Shown here piece by piece: positions 9,557 through 32,600 of a stretch of 39,925 bases of DNA. The DNA lies in assembly GCA_018897155.1 (NCBI GenBank), contig JAHILE010000028.1:1-39925 (forward strand). Direction: 5' to 3'. The DNA is from Nanoarchaeota archaeon. GTDB taxonomy: Archaea > EX4484-52 > LFW-46. The translations under genes were made by a program, and so were the position numbers. The notes below the pieces were generated by a model. The model worked only from the letters and a program-made list of their open reading frames with translations, made no database searches and was not told the origin of the DNA. Position 1 is the first letter of the stretch. The number at the start of each line of letters is the position of its first letter.

Positions 9557-10513
9557 ATGGAAAACGAAGTCCGCAGAAAGAACATTTCATATTTTCTTGA
9601 AACTTATGGCATCCGCCTCAAAAAAAGCCTTGGCCAGAATTTTCTTGTCGATAAAAATATAATCCGAAAAGAAGCAGAGCTTGCCCAAATAAAGCCTGGT
9701 GAGACCATTCTTGAGATAGGTCCGGGAGTAGGATTTTTGACGCGCGAACTTCTCTTGCGCACGAAAAATCATCTCGCTAGCGCTCGAAGCTTTTTGAACC
9801 GAAGATTCAAAAGCCTAGAGCAACGAAGTTGCGAAAGGATTCCAGCCCGGAGCGAAAAGCGAACGGCTGGAAAAGTAATTGCAATCGAGTTTGACAAAAA
9901 TCTTGCGGATATACTGGAAAAAGAATTTCAAAAAGAGATTGCTGAAAAGAAGCTAGAAATCATTTATGCAGACGCGCTGGAAATAGATTTTCCAAAGTTC
10001 GACAAATGCGTCTCAAACATACCTTACGAAATCTCGTCAAAAATAATCCTGAAACTCGGCAAATGCAAAAAGCCCGCAGTCCTTATTATTCAGAAAGAAT
10101 TTGCAGAGAGGCTCATTGCATTGCCTGGAGCGCGCGAGTATTCAAAAATTTCAGTGATGTCGCAGTATTATTTCCGTACAGAGCTGCTGCACATTGTTTC
10201 GAAAAAATCTTTTTTCCCTTCACCAAATATCGATTCAGCAATCGTGCGGCTTGAACCGCAAAGCGAAGCGTTCATAAAGTCGCTTGGCATTGCCGATGAA
10301 TCACTCTTCTTAAAAATAATTCATGCGCTTTTTCAGCATAAGAACATGACTGTCAGGAATGCGCTGATACATTCGCGCGGGGAATTCGGACTTGACAAGG
10401 AAACTGCAAAAAAAATAGCGGAGAATATTTCGCTGAAAGGCACAAAAGTCCGGATGCTTGATCTGATAATGATTGCACAAATTGCAGGAGAAATGTATGT
10501 CCAAGATATTTAA
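9557..10513 (+). CDS. ksgA: 16S rRNA dimethyladenosine transferase, with in-frame insert
   Basis: A KsgA/Dim1 enzyme that dimethylates two adjacent adenosines near the 3' end of 16S rRNA, using S-adenosylmethionine. The motifs are GQNFLVD near the N-terminus, LEIGPGVGFLT (SAM motif I) and NIPYEISS (the catalytic NIPY motif). At 318 residues it is longer than the usual 260-280 because residues 71-105 (9767-9871) interrupt the conserved LTRELLLRTK / KVIAIEFD junction between SAM motif I and the next strand. Removing those 35 codons restores a standard alignment. The start is the ATG at 9557 with GGGGTGA 5 nt upstream. The insert is in frame and free of stops, so the protein may still be active; this is untested. 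Confidence 0.9.
   Translation: MENEVRRKNISYFLETYGIRLKKSLGQNFLVDKNIIRKEAELAQIKPGETILEIGPGVGFLTRELLLRTKNHLASARSFLNRRFKSLEQRSCERIPARSEKRTAGKVIAIEFDKNLADILEKEFQKEIAEKKLEIIYADALEIDFPKFDKCVSNIPYEISSKIILKLGKCKKPAVLIIQKEFAERLIALPGAREYSKISVMSQYYFRTELLHIVSKKSFFPSPNIDSAIVRLEPQSEAFIKSLGIADESLFLKIIHALFQHKNMTVRNALIHSRGEFGLDKETAKKIAENISLKGTKVRMLDLIMIAQIAGEMYVQDI
9767..9871 (+). repeat. hairpin-rich in-frame insertion in ksgA
   Basis: 105 nt separating two contiguous parts of the KsgA fold. It contains three inverted repeats in series: an imperfect arm pair at 9782-9798 and 9806-9821; a perfect hairpin GCAAC-GAA-GTTGC (9820-9832); and TTCCAGCC / GGCTGGAA (9840-9847 with 9865-9872). GAAAA occurs at both edges (9763-9767 and 9870-9874), a possible short target duplication. 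The organisation resembles palindromic elements that insert in frame into bacterial genes, such as the Rickettsia palindromic elements. No sequence kinship with those is claimed. Confidence 0.7.
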
Positions 10514-29690: not shown

Positions 29691-32600
29691 TTTTTGTCGT
29701 GGTATTTCTCATTCTTTTCAGTGCTAGCCATAACTTCGGAACTTGTTGGAGTGTATTGAGTGAATGAAATTTGAGTTTTCAAAACATCCTCTTCCGCAAC
29801 ATCCTTGCATATTCTTTTTGCCTGTTCCAAAACCATTTCTGTAGCCATCTTTTGTTTATCCGGCGGATAACCATATTTATTCAGAATGCGTTTAACTGCA
29901 AGCCTCATTTTTGCCTGAACACTGTTTCTTAAGGTCCAATCGATGTTTGCGTTTTTACGAATCGTGTCTACAAGTTCTATTGCAATCATTCTTAGTACTT
30001 CATCACCTAGCACTTTGACTGCGCTATCATTAACATACAGCGCGTCATAGAACGCTATTTCATCATCATTCATTTTTAACTTTTTACCGCGCTCCTGCTC
30101 CTCTTTCATTTTTCTTGCAAGTTCTATTAGTTCTTCTATTACCTGTGCCGCTTCTATGTTTCGATTGGTGTATTTCCGTATGGATTTTTCTAGCATTTCC
30201 CTAAATGATTTTGCCTGAACGAGATTTTTCTTCATTCGAATGTTTATTTCGTCGTTAAGAAACCTCTTTAACATTTCAAAAGCAAGGTTTTTCTGTGGCA
30301 TATCCTTTACTTCTGCAAGAAATCCTTCTGAGAGAATTGAAATGTCTGGTTTTTTGAATCCTGTTGCCGAGAAAATATCCACGACTCGGTCAGATACAAT
30401 GGCTTTAGACAATATTTGTTTTATTGAAGAATCCAAATCTTCCTGATATTGTCCTTTGCTTGCAATTGTTTTTGATATTGTAGATTTTATTGCCTGAAAG
30501 AAACCAACATCTTCTTTGATTTCCATTGCTTTTTCATGAGGTACTGCAAGGGCAAATGCCCTAAGTAGTTCTGCGGTGTTCTTAAGGTATCTTTCTTTGC
30601 CATCCTTTTGCTTGAGTATATGTTCCATTGCCTGCGGTATTAGAGACATTCTCTCTTTTGGTTCAATCTTGAAAAATCTCTTATAATCGAAACCGTGAAA
30701 CATGTCGGACACTATTTCGTATTTTTCAAGCATCATCGCAACAGCATCTTCCTGTTCAAATGTTGGTTTGCCTTTTCCGCCGCTTTCTCTGTATTCAGAT
30801 ATTGCTTTTTTCAATTCAAGCCCGATACCGATGTAATCAACGATTAAACCGCCCGGTTTATCCTTAAAAACGCGGTTTACTCTTGCTATCGCTTGCATTA
30901 AACCATGACCCTGCATTGGCTTATCGATGTACATTGTATGCAAACAAGGGGCATCAAAGCCAGTGAGCCACATATCCCTTACAATAACCAGCTTAAGCGG
31001 ATCTTTTGAGTCCTTAATTCTATCTCCGATTGCTTTTCTTCTTTTCTTGTTCCGTATATGCTCCTGCCATTCTTTCGGATCGGATGCAGAACCAGTCATG
31101 ATTACTTTCAATATGCCTTTGGTATCGTCGTCGCTTGCCCATTCAGGCCGTAGTTTAATGAGTTCATTGTAAAGATCAACGCAAATTCTTCTGCTCATGC
31201 ACACAATCATGCCTTTTCCATCAAAAAAATTGACGCGCTTCTCAAAATGCCGGACAATATCTTTTGCTATCCGTTTTGTTCGCTTTGAGCTTCCAACTAC
31301 GGATTCAAGGCGCGCCCATTTGCTCTTTAAGGTTTCTTTTCGTGTGGCTTCTTCCCCTTCTGTGACTTCTTCAAACGCTTCATCAATTTTTGGCCGCTCT
31401 TCCGGTTTAAGATCAAGCTTTGCCAGCCGTGGTTCGTAGTATATTCTGACTGTAGCGCCGTCATTTACTGTCTGTCCGATATCGTATATATCAACATATT
31501 TACCAAAAACAGCAGGCGTGCTTTTGTCTGCTTGTTCTATTGGCGTTCCAGTGAACCCGATAAACGACGCATTCGGCAATGCATCCCGCAGGTATTTTGC
31601 AAAACCATAAGTTACTAGTGCCTGGTCTTCTTTTTCAACAACTTTTGCTTTGAAGCCATATTGGCTCCTGTGGGCTTCGTCAGCGATTACAATAATGTTT
31701 TCACGATTGGATAGCAGAGGATATTTTTCGTTTGATCCAACAGGCGAGAATTTTTGTATTGTAGTAAAAACTATTCCGCCCGAAGACACTTTAAGTAGTT
31801 CCTTAATTTTTTCTCTTGAATCCGCTTGTACTGGATCCTGTCTTAGCAAATCGTTGCATCTGCCAAATGTTCCGAAAAGCTGCTCGTCCAAGTCGTTTCT
31901 ATCGGTTAATACAACAATTGTGGGGTTGTCTAACGCTAAAACGAGTTTTCCAGTGTAGAAGACCATGCTTAGGCTTTTGCCCGAGCCTTGCGTGTGCCAG
32001 ACAATTCCTGCTTTTCTTTCCTTTTTTGTGGCATTTATTGTTGAAATGATCGCCTTGTTCACTGCATGATATTGGTGATATGCAGCAAGCTTTTTTTGAA
32101 GCTCTTTTTCCTTTTCAAAGACTATGAAATGCCGTACAAGGTCTAAGAACGTTTCTTTGTTGAACATTCCGCGTAAAAGAACCTCCATTGAAGTCATCTC
32201 GAACGCGTTCGAGAGCTTGCCGCTGGCAGGAGTGGACAAATGCGGCATGATATTTTTTGTATCTTTTGAGCCGTCAATGGTTTTCCATGGCATGAACCAT
32301 TCTTTATTTGATGTTAGTGTTCCTGCCTTTGTGAAAATGCCGTCGCTTATTACGAGAATCTCATTATAGCGGAATAATGACGGAATCTGGTCTTCGTATG
32401 TCTGAAGCTGGCTATATGCGGTTTCTATTGTGGCATTTTCATCTGTGGGGTTTTTGAGCTCAATAACAACAAGAGGCAGGCCGTTTACAAAAAGAATTAT
32501 GTCCGGCCTTCTGTTCGGAGGCTGTTTTGCAAGTATTGTAAACTGATTCACTGCCAGAAATTCGTTGTTTTTTGGATTTTCGAAATCGAAAAGTTGGACT

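Follow-up and report, generated by a model that had tools for sequence, protein, structure and literature searches.

The ksgA gene of the window, which is the whole 39,925-nucleotide stretch of DNA analyzed here, is interrupted by 35 in-frame codons. This insert is very probably a composite member of a family of palindromic, non-autonomous mobile elements found in this archaeal lineage. An earlier note, made from the sequence without database searches, had suggested a mobile element resembling the palindromic elements of Rickettsia. Genome comparison supports the suggestion, as the element is dispersed and occurs in frame in conserved genes. The same note held that it would be refuted by an insert shared among close relatives and conserved as protein but without hairpins, or by absence of the insert elsewhere in the genome. 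Neither was observed: the insert is missing from the close relatives, and its own genome holds many related copies. The genomes compared, among them the host genome (G000) and its same-genus relative (G001), are draft MAGs.

Structure of the ksgA insert

The coordinates of the gene, the insert, and its hairpins are summarized in Table 1. The reading frame and position assigned to the insertion in the earlier note were confirmed. The junctions are in frame (ACG AAA / AAT CAT ... GCT GGA / AAA GTA), and in the protein the 35 residues separate LLLRTK from KVIAIEFD. The Pfam and NCBIfam matches to RrnaAD/KsgA are both split around the insert. Protein alignment with KsgA homologues showed a gap at this site in 23/23 other sequences, including the KsgA of G001, which is 76% identical, lacks the insert, and reads ELLKYAKKVVAIEMD at the site. 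The G001 gene lies on the other strand, and the comparison was made on the protein. A second KsgA-like methyltransferase gene (39% identity) is also present in G000 (G000:C15:4505-5071), and second KsgA-like matches occur in several genomes of the same order.

Table 1. Positions of ksgA, its insert, and the hairpin modules, with copies of a second hairpin family
Feature	Position	Strand	Remarks
ksgA / rsmA (16S rRNA dimethyladenosine transferase)	9557..10513	+	318 aa including the insert; Pfam RrnaAD 2.8e-51; TIGR00755 213.7 bits (ksgA cut-off 171 bits)
In-frame insert	9767..9871	none	105 nt = 35 codons; edges lie in A-runs and are placed only to within a few bases
Peptide sequence at the insert			NHLASARSFLNRRFKSLEQRSCERIPARSEKRTAG
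Module A, linker hairpin type TTC/GAT	9765..9794	-	AAAAGCTTCGAGCGCTAGCGAGATGATTTT; exact pattern match
Central T4-palindrome-A4 hairpin	9791..9812	none	TTTT-TGAACC GAA GATTC-AAAA
Module B, linker hairpin type CTA/AAG	9809..9841	+	AAAAGCCTAGAGC-AACGAAGTT-GCGAAAGGATT; similar copies elsewhere
Terminal hairpin	9840..9872	none	TTCCAGCC...GGCTGGAA around GAGC..GCGAACG core; inverted-repeat match
Second hairpin family (copies in G001)	L146 9945-10046; L126 7697-7741; L121 10907-10951; L124 6188-6391

The insert is a mosaic, in which linker hairpin modules of one family alternate with T4-palindrome-A4 hairpins. The linker modules follow the pattern AAAAGC-NNN-GAG-(inner stem)-CGA-NNN-GATTTT. The module A type was also found in G001 and in three genomes of genus g11. 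Other copies of the central hairpin are palindromic too, with different stem sequences, and the core of the terminal hairpin resembles the linker module. Among the inverted repeats described earlier, TTCCAGCC/GGCTGGAA is a perfect arm pair of 8 bp; the other pairs are imperfect. The GAAAA at both edges had been read as a possible target duplication. Two copies are indeed present, but they are spaced by 107 nt rather than 105, which weakens the claim. The edges are better explained by a 3-nt A-run duplication or by plain insertion into an A/T run. A target-site duplication cannot be demonstrated, because the edges of the insert are homopolymers. At other loci, a tandem 63-nt duplication of a leader hairpin and a linker module lies upstream of a gene (L107 10112-10204), and the in-frame insert of a Fic-domain gene looks nested, with one element module interrupted by further hairpins (L180 641-769).

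The fold of 9750-9885 is barely more stable than that of shuffled sequences (z = -1.14); therefore, the hairpins alone are unconvincing. The insert stands above chance because it is repeated. When the host genome was searched with the 105-nt element, 45 partial matches were identified, the best of them 92% over 79 nt, and the exact linker pattern occurs 42 times in G000, compared with 0 for a reversed-pattern control.

In an AlphaFold model, most of the core was predicted with confidence (pLDDT > 90). The insert blocks scored 39-51, and the first part of the insert extends the first core helix. It is inferred, not observed, that the insert is translated; it would form a hydrophilic and poorly ordered loop that follows the first helix of the methyltransferase core and precedes its second strand, with the enzyme fold left intact. 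That this is a tolerated surface loop is likewise an inference.

Distribution of the element family

Copies of the insert elsewhere in G000 are also mosaics. The exact linker pattern was found 34 times in G001 and 2 to 4 times in each of the three g11 genomes; 29 further genomes of the order were searched and had none. A relaxed census counted 66 modules over 652 kb for G000 and 63 over 541 kb for G001 (reversed control, 2), which amounts to about 10 per 100 kb in the stretches sampled from the two species. These densities are somewhat inflated, since the first twenty stretches per species were chosen partly on known matches. In the GTDB 220 set (one genome per species), the type-A module was restricted to MAGs of this archaeal lineage, and it was absent from the viral contigs searched. 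There was no Rfam gathering match in the window, and element-rich loci gave only two Rfam matches at chance level (E 1.9 and 2.2). A loose regular expression of short words was discarded, as its matches were equally frequent in the reversed control and in the real sequence.

Several other repeats were noted. Contigs C46, C23, and C2 carry identical module copies at their ends (L022 48-78, L023 1501-1531, and L025 64-94), which suggests that the repeat breaks the assembly. Inside hsdR in the window, a perfect 18-nt palindrome with GCCGC/GCGGC arms (32193-32245) resembles the element modules, and the protein seems a dozen residues long there. This palindrome has no significant match elsewhere and was not accepted as a second element copy in the window. 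A second hairpin family, roughly GAGGAGYGAC...GATGGARYGACGA, has in-frame copies in G001 (Table 1) and few matches in G000. Its reverse strand contains CATCGTC, and it is possibly akin to CGTC-tagged repeats.

In-frame copies in conserved genes

Comparison of 150 reciprocal-best orthologue pairs between G000 and G001 identified 42 insertions of at least 8 residues. Where both flanks are well conserved, 12/12 insertions match DNA elsewhere (E < 0.05), and 8/12 have three or more matches. In-frame inserts occur reciprocally, each species bearing copies at sites that are empty in the other. The hosts include ksgA, ileS, gatA, porA, an aminotransferase, a HerA-like ATPase, and a Fic protein; uvrC and topA likewise contain copies. 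All copies found within orthologous genes keep the frame and contain no stops. They are read in different frames and may run with or against the gene. A blastx search around every module, with a query side independent of ORF calling, turned up no copy that disrupts a frame. One odd-frame case (L121, 16.2 kb) was rejected as a split gene; the subject ranges overlap, and it looks like two gene copies.

Many copies are located 3' of genes, inside genes, or between genes. T-runs are found at both ends of the copies in ksgA, the HerA-like gene, the aminotransferase gene, topA, and L126; the in-gene copies at L110, L118, and L108 have no clear T-runs at both ends. For orthologous 5' flanks bearing the element, the position is common to both species in 3/21 and one-sided in 18/21.

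Covariation of the stems and 5' leaders

Alignment of the full-length copies showed 19 base pairs, 13 of which have two-sided (compensatory) changes. The named structure is paired in 95.7% of cells, compared with 32-48% for slid control structures, and two-sided changes in the stems number 91, where shuffling gives a mean of 26. Amid the covarying stems, the G.A mismatches (GAG/CGA), the A4/T4 ends, and the loop around AACCAT are invariant. As judged from these alignments, the element is selected, or templated, as a hairpin. Covariation across copies cannot separate RNA from single-stranded DNA.

In G001, many full-length copies sit as 5' leaders just before gene starts. The three-hairpin form often ends in the hairpin NANCCCAA..ATGGAGAATGGNTN, followed by AAAATG. 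A Shine-Dalgarno hairpin at AAAATG was found at 27/98 ORF-start sites in G001, compared with 9/719 other sites; such leaders are few in G000 (3/109). The stems of this hairpin also covary (TAACC/GGTTA, TGACC/GGTCA, and CAAAC/GTTTG). From their position, it is inferred that the intergenic full-length copies act as 5' leaders with a Shine-Dalgarno hairpin. Exaptation as a leader is plausible, and its function is inferred only. It is possible, though less likely than not, that the mobile three-hairpin element in its full-length form brings along a Shine-Dalgarno hairpin, so that a gene could acquire a translation-initiation leader with each insertion, and that the stems diversify copy by copy via compensatory changes.

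Alternative explanations

BHB-type introns occur in archaeal protein genes, and the earlier note had offered as an alternative that the insert, hairpin-rich and in an archaeal gene, might be such an intron, removed from the ksgA mRNA by the tRNA endonuclease. This is very unlikely. Splicing would not require the copies in orthologous genes to keep the frame free of stops, with none disruptive; the copies may point the same way as the gene or the opposite way and are often intergenic, and no bulge-helix-bulge pairing of the insert edges was seen in the fold. Even less credible is a lineage-specific protein extension that serves KsgA function without mobility. The preserved frame and the predicted run of the first core helix into the insert would agree with it; however, the insert DNA recurs at dozens of unrelated sites, in different frames and both orientations, and therefore already contradicts it. 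The same-genus orthologue also lacks the insert.

The family might instead serve chiefly as a conserved cis-regulatory RNA leader, and its copies inside genes would then be by-products. The three-hairpin form of the full-length copies, their strong covariation, the Shine-Dalgarno sequence within a covarying hairpin directly 5' of start codons in G001, and the three leader positions common to both species all point in this direction. Such a leader would not account for the predominance of one-sided positions, the many copies 3' of or inside genes, the alternating arrays formed by the modules, or the scarcity of Shine-Dalgarno leaders in G000, and the reading is considered unlikely. Somewhat less likely again is that these are REP sequences mobilized by a transposase of the IS200/IS605 type (RAYT) encoded in the genome. 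The short hairpins and mosaics are compatible with this reading, and Y1 transposases of this type are encoded in both g1 genomes (three in G000 and one in G001). However, the module consensus has no GTAG tag, none of the four Y1 loci inspected is flanked by the element, and the element-bearing g11 genomes gave no Y1 match. No mobilizing enzyme was identified.

A mobile palindromic element remains the preferred reading. Its units are hairpin modules bounded by short A- and T-runs. Each unit is inferred to enter a T-run (on the opposite strand, an A-run), probably in the form of a single-stranded hairpin on which a host- or IS-encoded enzyme acts in trans. Insertion into the T-run that ends an existing copy would build mosaics; the ksgA mosaic and the alternating arrays at L097 (18.6-18.8 kb) may have arisen because units entered T-runs, including those at the end of older copies. 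Within genes, only stop-free insertions with a length that is a multiple of three would survive.

Relationship to known palindromic repeats

The palindromic elements of Rickettsia and Wolbachia are short dispersed repeats, found in frame in conserved genes and in intergenic regions, with no dedicated transposase known (PMC2229807, PMC3733652, PMC4224334). The Rickettsia units (RPE) are 105-146 bp long, with long stem-loops and a CGTC end (PMC2229807, PMC3733652). Their behavior is the closest match to the archaeal element, which is also dispersed, palindromic, and in frame inside conserved genes. However, the archaeal element consists of small alternating modules bounded by A/T, with conserved G.A mismatches, an inferred leader role, and an archaeal host. 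The module ends are AAAAGC and GATTTT, with no CGTC end. Membership in the RPE family itself is not supported; among one genome per species, the type-A module was found only in MAGs of this lineage.

REP sequences and BIMEs (GTAG/CGTC) are small hairpins that form mosaics, with alternative complementary stem residues and occasional intragenic copies (PMC3733652). The archaeal element shares all of these features, but lacks a GTAG or CGTC tag and has a G.A internal loop and T-run flanks. Prokaryotic MITEs are non-autonomous, under 200 bp, and highly structured, and form in-frame fusions (PMC10969869, PMC2229807). The same is true of the archaeal element, although its ends form no terminal inverted repeats corresponding to those of a transposon, and it shows no clear target-site duplication, which could not be told apart from its homopolymer flanks; no parent transposon was found. 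The nearest conceptual precedent is in Methanocaldococcus jannaschii, in which palindromic repeats, some fused into protein genes, were described (Suyama et al. 2005, cited in PMC2229807). On this secondary account, intragenic palindromic repeats in archaea are therefore not unprecedented; the sequences were not compared directly. What is new, judged against the literature searched, is how the modules are built, how many genes host them in frame, the covariation, and the leaders with a Shine-Dalgarno hairpin.

Palindromic elements that spread in frame into essential genes have been known mainly from Rickettsia and Wolbachia; the present case shows the same on a large scale for an archaeon, most likely of a DPANN-type lineage. 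The element appears to be a main source of insertions in the conserved proteins of this genus. With its covarying stems and Shine-Dalgarno hairpins, the family allows a test of whether selection acts on the folded strand as its unit, and of whether mobile repeats can be recruited as ribosome-binding leaders. If the element does carry its own Shine-Dalgarno hairpin with stems that diversify, a folded single strand, either RNA or DNA, would be what is recognized for its propagation or function.
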